Shown here: positions 17,011 to 24,492 of the stretch, in pieces | Numbering within the stretch: the stretch's first letter is position 1 | How the letters are laid out: each line of letters starts with the position of its first letter | Assembly (NCBI RefSeq): GCF_014926585.1 | Contig: NZ_CP045422.1 | Coordinates: forward strand, 3,006,001 to 3,070,000 | From: Devosia beringensis | GTDB lineage: Bacteria > Pseudomonadota > Alphaproteobacteria > Rhizobiales > Devosiaceae | Direction: 5' to 3' | DNA length: 64,000 bases | Notes under the pieces: generated by a model | The model's input: the letters and a program-made list of their open reading frames with translations, nothing else | What the model was told of the DNA's origin: nothing | Databases searched by the model: none | Program-made: the position numbers and the translations under genes

Positions 17011-18456
17011 GTGTCATTAAGCGTAACGCAACTGCTCGAAGGCTCCGGCGCCAGACCCAAAAAGGGCCTGGGTGCGGTCTTTGGCCTCAACTCGGACAGC
17101 CGGCGCATCGAGCCGGGGGACATCTTCTTTGCGCTGCCCGGCGCCAAGGTGCACGGCAACCAGTTTGTCGCCGAGGCAGTCAGGCGCGGCGCGCTGGCGG
17201 TGATCACCGATATCGCCCCGGCGGGTGATCCGGGCGTGCCCGTCATCATCGTCAAGGATGTGCGCGCTTCCTATGCCCGCGCCGCCTCGCGGGTGTATGA
17301 ACCGCAGCCGGAAATCACGGTGGCGGTCACCGGCACCAATGGCAAGACCTCGGTCGCCTCGTTCGTGCGCCAGATCTGGACCTATGCCGGCGTACCCGGC
17401 GCCAGTATCGGCACGCTGGGCGTGGAGACGGCGACGCGGCTTATCGAAGGCAGCCATACCACGCCGGATTCGCGCACGCTGCACCAGTCGATGCGCGCCC
17501 TCAAGGCCCAGGGCATCGACCATGTGGCCATTGAGGCCTCCAGCCATGGCCTGGACCAGCGCCGGCTCGACGGCATGCATTTTGAAGCCGTGGCCTTCAC
17601 CAATCTCAGCCGCGATCACCTCGATTACCACGCCGACATGGATGAATACCGCAATGCCAAGCTGCGGCTGTTCACCGACCTGCTGGTCGATAGCGGCCCG
17701 GCCGTGGTCAATGTCGATGATCCTGAATATGAGCCCTTCATGTTTGCCGCGCTGGGCGCGGGGGCGACGCTGCTGACCGTGGGCCGCGAAGGCGCCTATA
17801 TCGAAGTGCTCTCGATCAAGCCGGAAGGCTATGGCCAGCGCGTGGAAGTGCGCCATGTCGGCGAGAAGCTGAGCTTTCACCTGCCGCTGACCGGCGAGTT
17901 CCAGGTGTCCAATGCCATTGTTGCAGCGGCTCTGGCCATGTCGACCGGCGTCGACAAGTCCGATGCCTTTCCCGCATTGAGCGAACTGGTCGGCGCCAAG
18001 GGCCGGCTCGAACTGGTGGCCGAGCACAACGGCGCGGCGATCTTTGTGGACTATTCGCACAAGCCGGTGGCGCTGGAATCGGCGCTGGCGGCACTGCGGC
18101 CCTATGCAAAGGGCAAGCTGCGCGTGGTGTTTGGCGCCGGTGGCGACCGCGATACCGGCAAGCGGCCGATCATGGGCGAGGTTGCCGCGCGCATGGCCGA
18201 CGACGTCATCATCACCGATGACAATCCGCGCACCGAAGACCCGGCAGCGATCCGGGCGGCCATCATGGCCGAAGCCAAGGGCGCACGGGAAATCGGCGAT
18301 CGCCGCGAGGCCATTACCACCGCCATCAAATCGCTGCAGAAGGGTGATGTGCTGCTGATCGCCGGCAAGGGCCACGAGGATTACCAGATCATCGGGACCA
18401 CCAAGCATCACTTCTCCGACCATGAGGTCGTGGCCGAGGCAATCAAGGGGAAATAA
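17011..18456 (+). CDS. murE: UDP-MurNAc-tripeptide synthetase (meso-DAP adding)
   Basis: 481 aa cytoplasmic Mur ligase. The ATP site is TGTNGKT at 107-113. The substrate-selecting motif is DNPR at 404-407, which marks enzymes adding meso-diaminopimelate rather than lysine. It starts with GTG, with AGAAGGG upstream, 24 bp after ftsI. The last base of its stop is the first base of murF. Length is usual. Confidence 0.96.
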   Translation: MSLSVTQLLEGSGARPKKGLGAVFGLNSDSRRIEPGDIFFALPGAKVHGNQFVAEAVRRGALAVITDIAPAGDPGVPVIIVKDVRASYARAASRVYEPQPEITVAVTGTNGKTSVASFVRQIWTYAGVPGASIGTLGVETATRLIEGSHTTPDSRTLHQSMRALKAQGIDHVAIEASSHGLDQRRLDGMHFEAVAFTNLSRDHLDYHADMDEYRNAKLRLFTDLLVDSGPAVVNVDDPEYEPFMFAALGAGATLLTVGREGAYIEVLSIKPEGYGQRVEVRHVGEKLSFHLPLTGEFQVSNAIVAAALAMSTGVDKSDAFPALSELVGAKGRLELVAEHNGAAIFVDYSHKPVALESALAALRPYAKGKLRVVFGAGGDRDTGKRPIMGEVAARMADDVIITDDNPRTEDPAAIRAAIMAEAKGAREIGDRREAITTAIKSLQKGDVLLIAGKGHEDYQIIGTTKHHFSDHEVVAEAIKGK

Positions 18457-19871: not shown

Positions 19872-20957
19872 ATGTTGTATTTTCTCGGCCAGTTGGGTGA
19901 CGCTCTCACGGCTTTCAACGTCTTCCGCTACATCACCTTCCGCACTGCCGGTGCGGTGATCACGGCGATGTTCTTCGTGTTCATGTTCGGTCCGGGCATG
20001 ATCGCCATGCTGCGCCTCAAGCAGGGCACGGGGCAGCCGATCCGCGAAGACGGCCCCGCCGGGCACCTGCTGACCAAGAAGGGCACGCCCACCATGGGCG
20101 GGCTGATGATCCTGTCGGGCGCGGTGATTTCCACGCTGCTCTGGGCCAATCTGAGCAATGGCTATGTCTGGGTCGTGCTGTTCGTGACGTTGGGCTTCGG
20201 CGCCATCGGCTTTTACGACGACTATCTCAAGGTCAAGCGGATGAGTCACAAGGGCTTTGGCGGACGCCAGCGCCTGCTGATCGAGGCGCTGATCGCCACC
20301 ATCGCCGCCTTTGCCATTTCCCAGCTCAATTCTGGCGTCTACAGCAATGCGCTGCTGTTCCCCTTCGTCAAGGATCTGGCCTTCAATATGGGCTATTTCT
20401 ACATGCTGTTCGGCGGCTTTGTCGTCGTGGCAGCCGGCAATTCGGTCAACCTGACCGATGGGCTCGATGGCCTGGCCATCGTGCCGGTCATGGTGGCGGC
20501 GGCCTGTTTCGCGCTGATCGCCTATCTGGTGGGTAGCGTCAATTTCTCCGACTACCTGTTGCTCAACTATGTGCCCGGCACGGGCGAACTGTCCGTGGTC
20601 TGCGGGGCGCTGATCGGGGCGGGCCTGGGCTTTTTGTGGTTCAACGCGCCGCCGGCGCAGATCTTTATGGGCGATACCGGCTCGCTGGCTTTGGGCGGCG
20701 CGCTGGGCACCATTGCCGTGGCCACCAAGCACGAGATCGTGCTGGCCATCATTGGCGGCCTCTTCGTGCTGGAGACCGTCTCGGTGATCGTCCAGGTGGC
20801 GTCCTTCAAGCTCACCGGCAAGCGGGTGTTCCGCATGGCGCCGATCCACCACCATTTCGAGCATCTCGGCTGGACCGAAAGCCAGGTGGTGATCCGCTTC
20901 TGGATCATCAGCTTCGTGCTGGCGCTGATCGGCCTCAGCACCCTCAAGCTGCGCTAG
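19872..20957 (+). CDS. mraY: Phospho-MurNAc-pentapeptide translocase
   Basis: 361 aa polytopic inner-membrane enzyme that transfers phospho-MurNAc-pentapeptide to undecaprenyl phosphate, making lipid I. Catalytic motifs are present: FYDDYLK with the paired aspartates, [21 protein letters not shown], and the late [12 protein letters not shown]. About ten membrane helices. The gene normally followed by murD is here followed by convergent, unrelated genes. Confidence 0.96.
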
Positions 20958-20978: not shown

Positions 20979-21677
20979 TCAGATCGCGGGAGGCTTGGCG
21001 AAACCCTTGACCAGGATCGGCCCGGTGGGCCGGCCGGTCGGCGAGCCGGGAGCAGGCTCCAGCGTAATCTCGTAGAGCTGGCCGGTGGCGGGCAGCGGCA
21101 GGTCTGGCCCGGCAAGGGTCATGGCGCCGCTCTGGGTGAGGGTGCCCAGCGAGACCGGGCCGGTGTCCGCATCGGGCAGTGTCCAGACCTGCATCACCTG
21201 TCCCGCGGGCACGACGAAGTTTTCCAGCGGCAGCAGGCGCACCGTATCATCGGCATAGGCCTCGACGATGGCGCCGGGGCCATTGTCGCTTTCATTGAGC
21301 AGCACGGCCACCATGAGTGGCTGGCGCGCGGTGCTGGTGCTGGCGCCGGTGAAGTAACCAACGCCCAGCGCCACGGCCACACTGGCGGCCATCAGGCCCA
21401 GCCATTGCACCGGCGGCAGGCGACGGCGCAACGGGATTACCGTGGCGGTGGCGTGCGGAGTCGCGTCGAGGGCGCGCTCGATGCTCTGCCACAAAGCCGG
21501 GCTGGCCGGCTGAGGGGTAGCGGTGTCATCGAGCGCCTGGAACTGCTGCTGGACCCGGCTGACCGCGGCGGCCAAAGCGGGGTCGCTGGCGAGGCGCGCC
21601 TCGAAGGCGGCGCGTTCGGGCCCATCGAGCAGGTCGAGCACATAGTCGCCAATTTCCGCCAGCTGATCGGGGGTCAT
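20979..21677 (-). CDS. RskA-type anti-sigma factor
   Basis: 232 aa. A cytosolic N-terminal anti-sigma domain (PDQLAEIGDYVLDLLDGPE) lacks the zinc-binding HxxxCxxC motif, as in RskA-like factors. One membrane helix at about 105-125 (WLGLMAASVAVALGVGYF) is followed by a periplasmic RskA domain with the typical QVWTLPDADTGPVSLG and SPTGRPTGPILVKG. ATG 21677 overlaps the sigma-factor stop (ATGA). It should hold the ECF sigma factor inactive until an envelope signal arrives. A CCCGCGAT/ATCGCGGG hairpin (20972-20990) covers its stop codon. Confidence 0.9.
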   Translation of the reverse strand: MTPDQLAEIGDYVLDLLDGPERAAFEARLASDPALAAAVSRVQQQFQALDDTATPQPASPALWQSIERALDATPHATATVIPLRRRLPPVQWLGLMAASVAVALGVGYFTGASTSTARQPLMVAVLLNESDNGPGAIVEAYADDTVRLLPLENFVVPAGQVMQVWTLPDADTGPVSLGTLTQSGAMTLAGPDLPLPATGQLYEITLEPAPGSPTGRPTGPILVKGFAKPPAI

Positions 21678-22228
21678 GACAGGCACTCCTGCAGGGCAAT
21701 GGTGCCGCGACGGATCCAGGCTTTGACGGTGCCCAGCGGGGCGTTCATCGTTGCCGCCGCCTCGCCATGGTTGAGCCCGGTCACGTAGCACAGCAGGATG
21801 GCGCGGCGCCTTGGCTCGTCTAGCAGGTTTAGGCAGTGCTTGAGCGCATCGCGGTCGGAAAGGGTCTGGAAGGCGGCCATGGCGTCGCCCAGCCGGTCGC
21901 CCATATCGGCCAGCACGTCGGCGTCGTGATATTCCATGCGGCTGCCGTCGCGCAGCAGGTTGAGCGCGCGGTTGCGGGCAATGGTGGTCAGCCAGGCGCG
22001 GCCATGGCCCTGGGCGGGATCGAACTGGTCGGCCTTGCGCCAGGCGGCGACGAAGGTTTCCTGCACCACTTCCTCGGCCAGGTCGCGGCGGCGGACAATG
22101 CGCAGGGCAATGCCGATCAGCCGGGCGGATTCGAGGGCGAACAGGTCTGCCAAAGCGGGCTTGTCGCCTTGGGCAATCCGGATCAGCAGGGCATTGGTAT
22201 CGGGAGCATCAGGCATGAGCAGCAACAT
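21674..22228 (-). CDS. ECF sigma factor (SigK-like)
   Basis: 184 aa. Sigma region 2 is LIGIALRIVRRRDLAEEVVQ followed by ETFVAAWRKADQFDP. Region 4 is LDEPRRRAILLCYVTGLNHG followed by EAAATMNAPLGTVKAWIRRG. No extra domain. Co-transcribed with its anti-sigma gene by a four-base overlap and divergent from the DUF4394 gene, which may be a target. Start ATG 22228 has a GAAGG element 11 bases upstream; a second in-frame ATG lies four codons later. The pair interrupts the cell-wall cluster at the murD position. Confidence 0.9.
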   Translation of the reverse strand: MLLLMPDAPDTNALLIRIAQGDKPALADLFALESARLIGIALRIVRRRDLAEEVVQETFVAAWRKADQFDPAQGHGRAWLTTIARNRALNLLRDGSRMEYHDADVLADMGDRLGDAMAAFQTLSDRDALKHCLNLLDEPRRRAILLCYVTGLNHGEAAATMNAPLGTVKAWIRRGTIALQECLS

Positions 22229-22378
22229 GGGGGAATTCGCCTTCCATGTCGATTACACGCGGCCGAGGCAATTGGATGCAGCGCAGATTTATTTCATGCC
22301 TCTGCATCCAGAGGCGGGGCCCCGTGGGTAAGCCCTCTGTAACCGGCGCATCGCGCGCTGCCCCAAGAGGAGATTTTC
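22229..22378. promoter_or_regulatory. Divergent sigma/DUF4394 control region with overlapping inverted repeats
   Basis: 150 bp between divergent genes. Two inverted repeats share bases: GGATGCAG (22274-22281) with CTGCATCC (22302-22309), and GCCTCTG (22298-22304) with CAGAGGC (22309-22315). They could form mutually exclusive structures or be nested operators. AGGAG (22368-22372) is the ribosome site of the DUF4394 gene. The promoters themselves were not pinned down. Confidence 0.5.
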
Positions 22379-23167
22379 ATGCCAAAGCTCACCCAGACTG
22401 CCCTGCGTACCCTGCTGGCCAGCACCGCGCTGATCGCCGCTGCCGGCGCCGCCCATGCCGCTCCCGCCATCGGCCTCGTCGGCGGCACCACGCTTGTCAT
22501 GTTCGATACCGAGACCCTGGCCGTCAGCGGCACGATGGATGTGACCGGCGTCGACGGCCTGGCCGGCATTGATGTGCGTCCGGCTGACCAGATGCTCTAT
22601 GGCGTGTCGCTGGCCGGCGAGATCGTCACCATTGATACCGCCAGCGGCGCTGCCACGGTCAAGTCGACCCTGTCGGAAATGCTGCCCAGCTTTGACGGCG
22701 CCATTGTCGACTTCAACCCGATGGCTGACCGCCTGCGCCTGATGGCCACGGACGGCACCAATCACCGCGTCAATGTTGACGACGGCATGGTGACGGTCGA
22801 TGGCTCGCTGGCCTATGAGGCGGGTGACATGCATGAGGGCGAGACCCCGGCCATTGTTGCCGCGGCCTATATCAACTCGATCGGCAAGCCCGAAGCCACG
22901 GCGATGTATGACATCGACGCCACCATTGCCGCGCTCATCCAGCAGACGGCGCCCAATGACGGCACGCTGGCCGCTATCGGCAAGCTGGGCGTCGAAGGCT
23001 CGAGCTATGCCTTCGATATCGCTGCCACCGAAGACCTGACCAATACCGCCTATCTCGTCATCGACAACGCGCTGCATACGGTCGACCTGGAAACCGGCGC
23101 GGCCACTGAACTGGGCGCCATCGAGGGCGTCGACGGCATGATCCACGACATCGCCATCCTGCCATAA
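22379..23167 (+). CDS. Secreted DUF4394 protein
   Basis: 262 aa. Residues 1-28 form a Sec signal peptide cleaved after AHA (LLASTALIAAAGAAHA). The rest is a DUF4394 domain, predicted beta-propeller-like, with repeats such as GLVGGTTLVMFDTETL, GVDGLAGIDVRPADQMLYGV and FDGAIVDFNPMADRLRLMA. The function of the domain is unknown. DUF4394 genes beside ECF sigma/anti-sigma pairs suggest an extracytoplasmic stress product. It is closed by a strong terminator, so it forms its own unit. Confidence 0.87.
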   Translation: MPKLTQTALRTLLASTALIAAAGAAHAAPAIGLVGGTTLVMFDTETLAVSGTMDVTGVDGLAGIDVRPADQMLYGVSLAGEIVTIDTASGAATVKSTLSEMLPSFDGAIVDFNPMADRLRLMATDGTNHRVNVDDGMVTVDGSLAYEAGDMHEGETPAIVAAAYINSIGKPEATAMYDIDATIAALIQQTAPNDGTLAAIGKLGVEGSSYAFDIAATEDLTNTAYLVIDNALHTVDLETGAATELGAIEGVDGMIHDIAILP

Positions 23168-23191
23168 GCCTTCCTGCCTGCATCCATCATG

Positions 23192-23222
23192 GCGCGCGGA
23201 CCTCGGGGTCCGCGCGCTTTTT
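23192..23222 (+). terminator. Rho-independent terminator after DUF4394 gene
   Basis: The perfect 11-bp stem GCGCGCGGACC/GGTCCGCGCGC (23192-23202 with 23207-23217) is followed by TTTTT. It insulates ftsW, so the second half of the dcw cluster needs its own promoter within about 23223-23319. Confidence 0.93.
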
Positions 23223-23319
23223 CGTTCACGAGTTGCAAAACGCAAATCCGGTTGGCAAATCGGTAACCATCTACCTGCTACAATTTGAGACAGTTTGTAC
23301 CGAGTAGTCTGGCTGTCCC

Positions 23320-24492
23320 ATGATGTTCTCCCGTGCCGAAAAAACGCCAATGGCGGAGTGGTGGTGGTCGATCGACCGGGAACTGCTGGGGGCGCTGGTG
23401 CTGCTGCTGACCTGCGGCATGGTGCTCAGCTTTGCCGCCAGCCCGCCGGTGGCCGAGCGCATTGGCCTTTCCGAATGGTATTTCGTCATTCGCCACGCCA
23501 TGTTCTGCGCCCTGGCGCTGCCGGTCATGCTGGTCACCTCGCTGCTCAACCACCGCCAGGCGCGCATTGCCGCGCTGGTGACGCTGGTGGTCAGTCTCGT
23601 GCTGCTGTGGGCGACGCTGCGCTTTGGCACCGAGGTCAAGGGCGCACGGCGCTGGATGTCGTTTGGCGGCCAGTCGATCCAGCCTTCCGAATTCGTCAAG
23701 CCGGCCTTTGCCGTGCTCAGCGCCTGGCTGTTCTCGGAATCGATGATCCGGCGCAATGTGCCGGGCAAGCTGCTGGCCACGGCGATCATGGTGGCCATTG
23801 TCGCCGGCCTGCTGCTGCAGCCCGATATCGGCCAGACGGCGCTGATCCTGGGCACCTGGGCGGTGCTGCTGTTTCTGAGCGGGATTTCCTGGTTCGTCAT
23901 CTTTGGCCTGGCCGGTGGGGCCGGGGCGCTGCTGTTTGGCGCCTATATGTTCTTCCCGCACTTTTCGCGCCGCATCGATACCTTCCTCAACCCCGAAGGC
24001 GGCGGCAATACCTACCAGATCGACCGGGCGCTGCAGTCGCTGCTCGAGGGCGGCTGGTTCGGCCGCGGCCCGGGTGAATCGATCGCCAAGAAGCTGATCC
24101 CCGATGCGCATGCCGACTATGTCTTCTCGGCGGCGGCGGGCGAGTTCGGCATCCTGTTCTGCATGGTGCTGGTCAGCCTGATCGCCTTCATCGTCATTCG
24201 CGCCATGCTGGCGGCGCAGCGGCAGTCGAGCCTGTTCGCCCGCCTTGCTGCCTCCACATTGGCGATCCAGTTTGCCATGCAGTCCGGCATCAACCTGGCG
24301 GTGAATCTCAACCTGATCCCGCCCAAGGGCATGACGCTACCCTTTGTCAGCTATGGCGGTACCTCGATGATTGCCGTGGCCTTCGGCATGGGGCTGATGC
24401 TGGCCTTTACCCGTATCAAGCCCGAGGAACGCATGACCACCGGCCTGCCCAGCTTCAAGAGCGCCATCGCACCCCTGGCACCCGCCGAATGA
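23320..24492 (+). CDS. ftsW: Septal peptidoglycan glycosyltransferase FtsW
   Basis: 390 aa SEDS-family protein with about ten membrane helices. It polymerises lipid II at the septum together with FtsI. SEDS signatures are visible: KGARRWMSFGGQSIQPSEFV, LLQPDIGQTALI, and the late NLIPPKGMTLPFVSYGGTSM. Two tandem ATGs (23320 and 23323) can serve as start. It follows a terminated unrelated gene, not murD as usual, and overlaps murG by four bases. Confidence 0.96.
   Translation: MMFSRAEKTPMAEWWWSIDRELLGALVLLLTCGMVLSFAASPPVAERIGLSEWYFVIRHAMFCALALPVMLVTSLLNHRQARIAALVTLVVSLVLLWATLRFGTEVKGARRWMSFGGQSIQPSEFVKPAFAVLSAWLFSESMIRRNVPGKLLATAIMVAIVAGLLLQPDIGQTALILGTWAVLLFLSGISWFVIFGLAGGAGALLFGAYMFFPHFSRRIDTFLNPEGGGNTYQIDRALQSLLEGGWFGRGPGESIAKKLIPDAHADYVFSAAAGEFGILFCMVLVSLIAFIVIRAMLAAQRQSSLFARLAASTLAIQFAMQSGINLAVNLNLIPPKGMTLPFVSYGGTSMIAVAFGMGLMLAFTRIKPEERMTTGLPSFKSAIAPLAPAE

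Follow-up and report, generated by a model that had tools for sequence, protein, structure and literature searches.

The mraY-ftsW interval of Devosia beringensis: a murD position very probably vacated under the MurD2-MurL route and later occupied by a sigma/anti-sigma/DUF4394 module

The closest described counterpart of the pathway treated here is the MurD2-MurL pair of Xanthomonas oryzae (PMC8788868, PMC5808125; both are cited throughout from the parts of their text that were accessible). In this pair, MurD2 adds L-glutamate (L-Glu), and MurL is an ATP-dependent epimerase that turns L-Glu into D-Glu (PMC8788868). Glu197 and Arg358 of X. oryzae MurD2, which correspond to Asp182 and Lys348 in E. 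coli, set the stereospecificity, and replacement of Lys319 by Thr allows E. coli MurD to use L-Glu (PMC8788868). Devosia, Pelagibacterium and Parvularcula are among the alphaproteobacteria listed with MurD2/MurL in the same paper, and the presence of the pair in Devosia is already published. The present analysis concerns the interval between mraY and ftsW in the division and cell wall (dcw) cluster of Devosia beringensis, within a 64,000-nucleotide stretch of contig NZ_CP045422.1 (positions 3,006,001 to 3,070,000; hereafter the window), and the same interval in related genomes. A sigma/anti-sigma pair on the reverse strand and a DUF4394 gene occupy the usual position of murD, and murD itself is absent from it, as a first-pass annotation of the window had recorded. 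Two separate events very probably lie behind this arrangement: the loss of murD under a MurD2-MurL route and, after it, the placement of the sigma/anti-sigma/DUF4394 module in the vacated slot of some Devosia.

The dcw cluster in the window has the order murE (17011-18456), murF, mraY, a 2362-bp interval, ftsW, murG and murC. The murD profile TIGR01087 matches only the paralogues murC, murE and murF in the window, each below the cut-off, in agreement with the earlier statement that murD is not there. In E. coli K-12, murD lies between mraY and ftsW. The same two genes flank canonical murD in 14 of the 15 order relatives read; in the fifteenth, ftsW is present and mraY is not in the stretch read. 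The left border of the vacated slot is mraY (19872..20957, forward strand), which matches Pfam Glycos_transf_4 and MraY_sig1 and reaches 410.6 bits with TIGR00445. The right border is ftsW (23320..24492, forward strand), with 239.7 bits for PF01098. At three loci (L010, L011 and L015, from G033, G040 and G038), stop-to-stop frames of 850-875 codons span the murD match and could accommodate mraY plus murD.

The absence of murD from the slot extends across the Devosiaceae. An mraY match is present in 131 family genomes. The stretch downstream of mraY was taken from 100 of them, and 96 of these stretches together with the window give 97 measured slots. The unmeasured slots end at a contig end (L116, L160), lie in a stretch that is too short (L126) or have ftsW outside the stretch (L174). 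None of the 97 slots contains murD, and a hidden remnant was rejected when 16 canonical MurD queries found no match in them at E<=0.1. The full cassette is present in 12 slots, all of them in Devosia (12 of 59, window included) and all with the same gene order and orientation. Another 12 slots, also all in Devosia, contain DUF4394 without a match to the sigma or anti-sigma protein of the window (E<=1e-4). The remaining 73 slots have neither the cassette nor DUF4394. The slot is shorter than 500 bp in 30 of 38 cases from other genera (median 156.5 bp) and in 28 of 59 from Devosia, and the other eight slots from other genera exceed 500 bp and are filled with other sequence. These counts refer to the measured set; at least three genomes outside it (G079, G096 and G097) also have DUF4394 no more than about 2 kb from mraY. 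The loss of murD is independent of the cassette, because slots lack murD family-wide while the cassette sits in 12 of 97, and it is most simply older than the arrival of the cassette. The erased murD slot is not mentioned in the accessible text of PMC8788868 and PMC5808125. In one genome (L174, G008), no ftsW occurs within 7.2 kb after mraY, and the murC-type match is found on the same contig at a distance of about 137 kb; this cluster seems to be split.

The genome of the window (one contig, 4.05 Mb) contains a single TIGR01087 match above the cut-off (G000:C1:2737022-2738278, minus strand; 274 bits against 212). This murD-like gene is about 289 kb from the mraY-ftsW slot, and a MurL gene lies directly upstream and overlaps it by 11 bp. 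In an alignment of MurD-type proteins (158 of 189 rows kept; duplicates and rows shorter than 380 residues left out), all 72 Devosiaceae MurD2 sequences have E, R and P at E. coli MurD sites 182, 348 and 414; these rows include a few from metagenome-assembled genomes placed in the family by MurL similarity. At sites 182 and 348, D and K occur in E. coli MurD and in 16 of 16 canonical MurDs from alphaproteobacteria. A quick tree without bootstrap was made from 72 of the 158 aligned rows, the characterised X. oryzae sequence not among them. In this tree, a branch with a Shimodaira-Hasegawa-like approximate likelihood ratio (SH-aLRT) support of 100 parts 55 MurL-associated MurD2 rows from 17 canonical rows. 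The Devosiaceae MurD2 sequences group with MurD2 of gammaproteobacteria, actinobacteria and other alphaproteobacteria, and are split from the remaining rows with an SH-aLRT support of 100. On sequence grounds, the distant ligase is MurD2 and not a relocated canonical murD, because it falls on this side of the tree, carries L-Glu-type residues and is overlapped by MurL. The residue at the site of E. coli Lys319 is K throughout the 17 canonical rows, whereas each of the 141 MurD2 rows has I or L there. The accessible text of PMC8788868 does not mention this I/L pattern of MurD2.

The MurL protein of the same genome reaches 389.7 bits with the NCBIfam MurL model NF041275 and aligns to positions 10-445 of 447, which is homology over the full length of the model. 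MurL matches, some of them fragments, are present in 131 of 136 Devosiaceae genomes and in 15 of 16 genera. Among 16 order relatives, 10 have a glutamate racemase (MurI) above the TIGR00067 cut-off, against none of the 136 Devosiaceae genomes. An alternative two-enzyme route appears to supply the wall precursor in the entire family; the gene content and the residues are observed, and the activities are inferred from the characterised orthologues. The Devosiaceae share with X. oryzae the adjoining MurL and MurD2 genes and the Glu, Arg and Pro at the named sites (PMC8788868, PMC5808125), as well as the absence of a glutamate racemase above the cut-off (PMC8788868). They differ in that the Devosia MurL scores 390 bits on a model named for Xanthomonadales (an equivalog model with a cut-off of 700), and in that the activity of the Devosia pair is a predicted one.

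Several observations weigh against this account. All MurL matches are below the NF041275 cut-off (none of 136 family genomes and none of 385 class genomes pass), and the predicted Devosia protein therefore counts as MurL only in a broad sense. Five genomes with a completeness of 62-92% have no MurL match (G017, G044, G045, G049 and G121). MurD2 is nevertheless present in G049, and G121 may be a genuine exception. The absence of MurI leaves room for a D-amino-acid aminotransferase that makes D-Glu. A racemase-like match of 113 bits in G047 (G047:C236:1055-1654) is the best in the family and below the cut-off; this genome also carries MurL and MurD2, and it may retain a racemase or be contaminated. 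Three order relatives keep canonical murD without a clear MurI (G027 with no match, G030 with 35 bits and G032 with 41 bits), so the absence of MurI alone is not proof of the pathway. Outside the Devosiaceae, site 182 is D in two of seven named alphaproteobacterial MurD2 sequences and in one of 18 from actinobacteria. The group of MurD2 from gammaproteobacteria and other taxa (n=28) has one row with C at site 182 and one with V at site 348. The history of the cassette is also less firm than that of murD. Its distribution requires at least eight changes on a four-protein FastTree tree, three of which are forced by starred branches (group test), and the tree does not separate gain from loss.

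The first-pass annotation read the locus as a swap of murD for the cassette, in which murD moved elsewhere and the operon was split. The cassette does sit exactly at the usual place of murD, and the only murD-like gene above the cut-off is far away. A displacement in one exchange is nevertheless barely credible: murD is missing from 97 of 97 slots and the cassette is present in 12, and all 38 slots of other genera and 35 of 59 in Devosia lack murD, cassette and DUF4394 alike. The genome nearest to the window on the tree (L141, 91% identity) has a slot of 110 bp. Relatives that have MurD2 and neither murD nor the cassette in the slot rule the displacement out, the distant ligase groups with MurD2, and the conserved element upstream of ftsW described below is independent of the cassette. 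The statement that murD must lie elsewhere stands in part. It is gone from the slot and a MurD-type ligase is found about 289 kb away, but this ligase is MurD2 and not the displaced gene. For murD, the slots of related genomes are congruent with the alternative that the annotation itself had named, an old lineage trait with a separate locus, and not with a replacement event. An ordinary murD would pass the TIGR01087 cut-off, and the distant gene does so. That it is one is very improbable, given the L-Glu-type residues in 72 of 72 sequences, its separate side of the tree, the overlap with MurL and the lack of MurI above the cut-off in 136 genomes. Automatic naming would label this gene murD and mask an alternative route that seems to be family-wide.

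A further question is whether the Devosia ancestor already had the cassette in the slot, with many later losses, or whether insertion took place repeatedly. The 12 carriers are alike in order and orientation, DUF4394 without the pair occupies 12 more slots, and one genome (G066) has a fossil of the cassette at L160:986-1465, in which a deletion has fused the tails of the anti-sigma and DUF4394 genes. Against this, genomes elsewhere in the genus and the family carry the module at other sites, and 11 of the 12 DUF4394-only slots have another promoter motif and may have an origin other than the cassette. The tree is neutral on the point, and an ancestral cassette is a serious possibility that falls slightly short of even. 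Under the preferred reading of two separate events, canonical murD and the racemase gene murI would have become dispensable and then been lost; the order of gain and loss is itself inferred. The loss of murD would have brought mraY and ftsW together. Later, within Devosia, the pattern of presence suggests that a self-contained sigma/anti-sigma/DUF4394 module settled in the slot left by murD in some species, and the fossil in G066 suggests that at least one species lost it again.

The slot is also free of murD in users of MurL outside the family. MurL matched 17 genomes in a class-wide draw of 385, the genome of the window included. The search for mraY covered 23 further genomes, made up of 12 of 80 named MurL loci and 11 of the 16 class genomes; of these, G436 was left aside, and no mraY above the cut-off is present in G539 and G547. 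Twenty genomes were read after mraY; one of them, G237, serves as the control, and the other 19 have MurL. The 19 comprise four Xanthomonadales-type genomes, two Alteromonadaceae, Roseiarcaceae and other alphaproteobacteria, and two Micromonosporaceae. In none of the 19 does the mraY-ftsW interval contain a murD match, and it is too short for the gene. The control, which is among the 17 matched genomes of the class-wide draw and has a partial MurL match of 103 bits, keeps canonical murD in the slot. A murD-free mraY-ftsW slot is a simple genomic sign of the alternative route, and it was borne out in each of the 19 genomes examined outside the family. It is rather likely that the spread of MurL-MurD2 made murD dispensable repeatedly, and that the murD-free slot marks its users in at least the Pseudomonadota and Actinomycetota and offers a free landing site, for example to the sigma cassette. 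No statement of a murD-free slot in MurL users was found in the literature searched, which missed most subscription papers, the 2017 discovery paper included.

Two other features were seen in MurL-bearing genomes. In seven alphaproteobacteria (G241, G352, G444, G341, G436, G514 and G224), the murE and murF matches lie in equal-length frames of 939-953 codons, which suggests a MurE-MurF fusion. In a proteobacterial metagenome genome (L298:3001-4335), the MurL reading contains one in-frame stop and may represent a pseudogene, an error or another genetic code.

Within the cassette of the window, the coordinates and gene names given in the first-pass annotation are correct, and the Pfam and NCBIfam matches agree with them. 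The gene next to mraY encodes an RskA-type anti-sigma factor (20979..21677, reverse strand), with 83.2 bits for PF10099 (RskA_C) and 115.6 bits for the anti-sigma model NF052375 (cut-off 100). Judged by eye, it likely has one membrane segment. An extracytoplasmic function (ECF)-type RNA polymerase sigma factor follows (21674..22228, reverse strand), with Sigma70_r2 and Sigma70_r4_2 matches and 71.2 bits for TIGR02937, above the cut-off. The start of the anti-sigma gene overlaps the stop of the sigma gene by 4 bp (ATGA). With sigma regions 2 and 4 and an adjoining RskA_C protein, the two form an ECF sigma/RskA pair. The DUF4394 protein (22379..23167, forward strand) has 233 bits for PF14339 and is probably exported, its N-terminus being signal-peptide-like by eye. 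The cassette shares the overlapping sigma/anti-sigma genes and the RskA_C domain with RskA/SigK-type pairs, and differs from them in its divergent DUF4394 gene and in a promoter pattern that is unique to the cassette in the genome. Twenty DUF4394 loci were chosen as lying away from the slot, and in 17 of them the gene is accompanied by a close sigma factor (58-71% identity) and an anti-sigma factor. The other three are L348 with distant relatives only, L354 with none, and L360, which turned out to be a slot where DUF4394 by itself adjoins ftsW.

Two divergent promoter-like elements lie between the sigma and DUF4394 genes. TGCATCC-N15-GTGTA (22254..22280, reverse strand) reads into the sigma/anti-sigma operon and TGCATCC-N16-GGGTA (22303..22330, forward strand) reads into DUF4394; their first halves form an inverted repeat. 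The pattern TGCATCY-N15..16-GKGTA has exactly two sites in the 4.05-Mb genome, both in the cassette, and the reversed control pattern has none. Upstream of DUF4394, TGCATC(C/T)-N14..17-G(G/T)GTA is present in 12 of 12 slot cassettes and in 16 of 20 outside stretches, with 0 expected from shuffles. The same motif class precedes the sigma gene less often, in just seven of the 12 cassettes within the slot and in 11 of 18 elsewhere, and the promoter of the sigma operon, that is the autoregulation side, is therefore less certain than the DUF4394 side. The DUF4394-only slots (L134, L136, L147, L148, L159, L165, L168, L177, L178, L180, L182 and L191) lack the TGCATC motif (0 of 12), and 11 of the 12 have GAAAC-N14..18-CGTA, which suggests that another ECF sigma factor drives DUF4394 there.

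The simplest reading of these motifs is that the sigma factor would control its own operon and one exported protein. The module is probably a small envelope-signal circuit, in which the membrane anti-sigma factor would hold the sigma factor and the released sigma factor would transcribe its own operon and DUF4394 from the two diverging promoters proposed from the conserved motifs. The cassette looks like an ordinary small stress-response module. The first-pass annotation had asked whether the ECF regulon includes envelope genes. There is no sign of envelope biosynthesis genes in it: the genome-wide search returned just the two sites within the cassette, although an exact pattern can miss weaker ones. 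No paper treating DUF4394 together with a sigma factor was found in the literature searched.

A terminator had been placed after DUF4394, and a GC-rich hairpin with a 12-pair stem followed by TTTTT is present directly 3' of the gene (23191..23218, forward strand). The hairpin scan is weak alone, with two hairpins in the region against 1.4 expected from shuffles; the placement and the 12-pair stem add support. Upstream of ftsW is the conserved element TTGGCAAATCGGTAAC (23252..23267, forward strand). In the measured slots, this element is centred on GGTAAC and lies a median of 60 bp before the ftsW start (range 45-124). GGTAAC precedes ftsW in 84 of 97 slots (53 of 59 in Devosia and 31 of 38 in other Devosiaceae), in none of the eight order relatives looked at, and in 14 of 913 140-bp stretches of the window. 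It may act as a promoter, and it may have arisen upon the loss of murD. The element is present both with and without the cassette and was not made by it, contrary to the proposal that the swap had put ftsW under a separate promoter. A consensus scan for a sigma-70 promoter found none before ftsW; the conserved element came from the comparison.

The reaction of MurL is called unclear in PMC8788868, where an adenylate mechanism is proposed without structural support. MurL was examined here in an alignment of 26 sequences (A2), from which L298 was dropped for the stop in its reading, and in the MurL of the window's own genome (L035:9287-10687). All 26 sequences contain an invariant GGGKDS run and four invariant cysteines, C322, C337, C340 and C343 in Devosia psychrophila numbering, in the arrangement C(x)14CxxCxxC. 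A Pfam search of MurL gave nothing convincing, and the MurL profile found only weak PP-loop matches among PDB sequences (best E 0.013). The QueC family PF06508 matches none of the 26 at E<=1, and the PADLOC QueC model matches one of 26 (E 0.027).

The predicted structure of the first sequence in the alignment has a mean predicted local distance difference test score (pLDDT) of 93.3 and a predicted template modelling score (pTM) of 0.92. Foldseek relates it to QatC (E 4.6e-5), QueC (7.4e-5) and Cap9 (3.2e-4). The Foldseek whole-chain superposition on QatC is poor, with a template modelling (TM) score of 0.42 and a root-mean-square deviation (rmsd) of 11.2. VIA-align gives Z 19.1-19.2 over 317-318 residues (rmsd 3.7-3.9) for QatC and Z 13.2-13.4 over 186 residues for QueC; its list tests mostly model residues 148-419, and folds outside the list may match as well. 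The predicted fold of MurL is QueC-like. MurL resembles QueC, QatC and Cap9 (PMC13329287 and PMC13279940, from their accessible text) in this fold, in a GGGKDS loop similar to SGGxDS, and in a CxxCxxC run with four invariant cysteines. It differs from the QueC family in a loop that starts with G and not S, in the 14 rather than eight residues between the first and second cysteine, and in its substrate. The strict motifs SGGxDS and C(x)8CxxCxxC (PMC13329287) are thus absent, and with the Pfam result they exclude MurL from the QueC family in the strict sense.

Neither MurL nor an epimerase is named in the accessible main text of these two 2026 QueC-family papers, and no paper in the literature searched, judged by title and abstract, has a connection between MurL and QueC as its subject. 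One candidate MurL paper, PMC2922099, was set aside since the word matched in it is 'Mur_ligase'. The QueC-like model suggests that MurL probably works in a QueC-like manner, with activation of a carboxylate by ATP and release of AMP. This agrees with the adenylate mechanism of PMC8788868. The fold match is a possible new mechanistic clue and supplies a testable mechanism for MurL.

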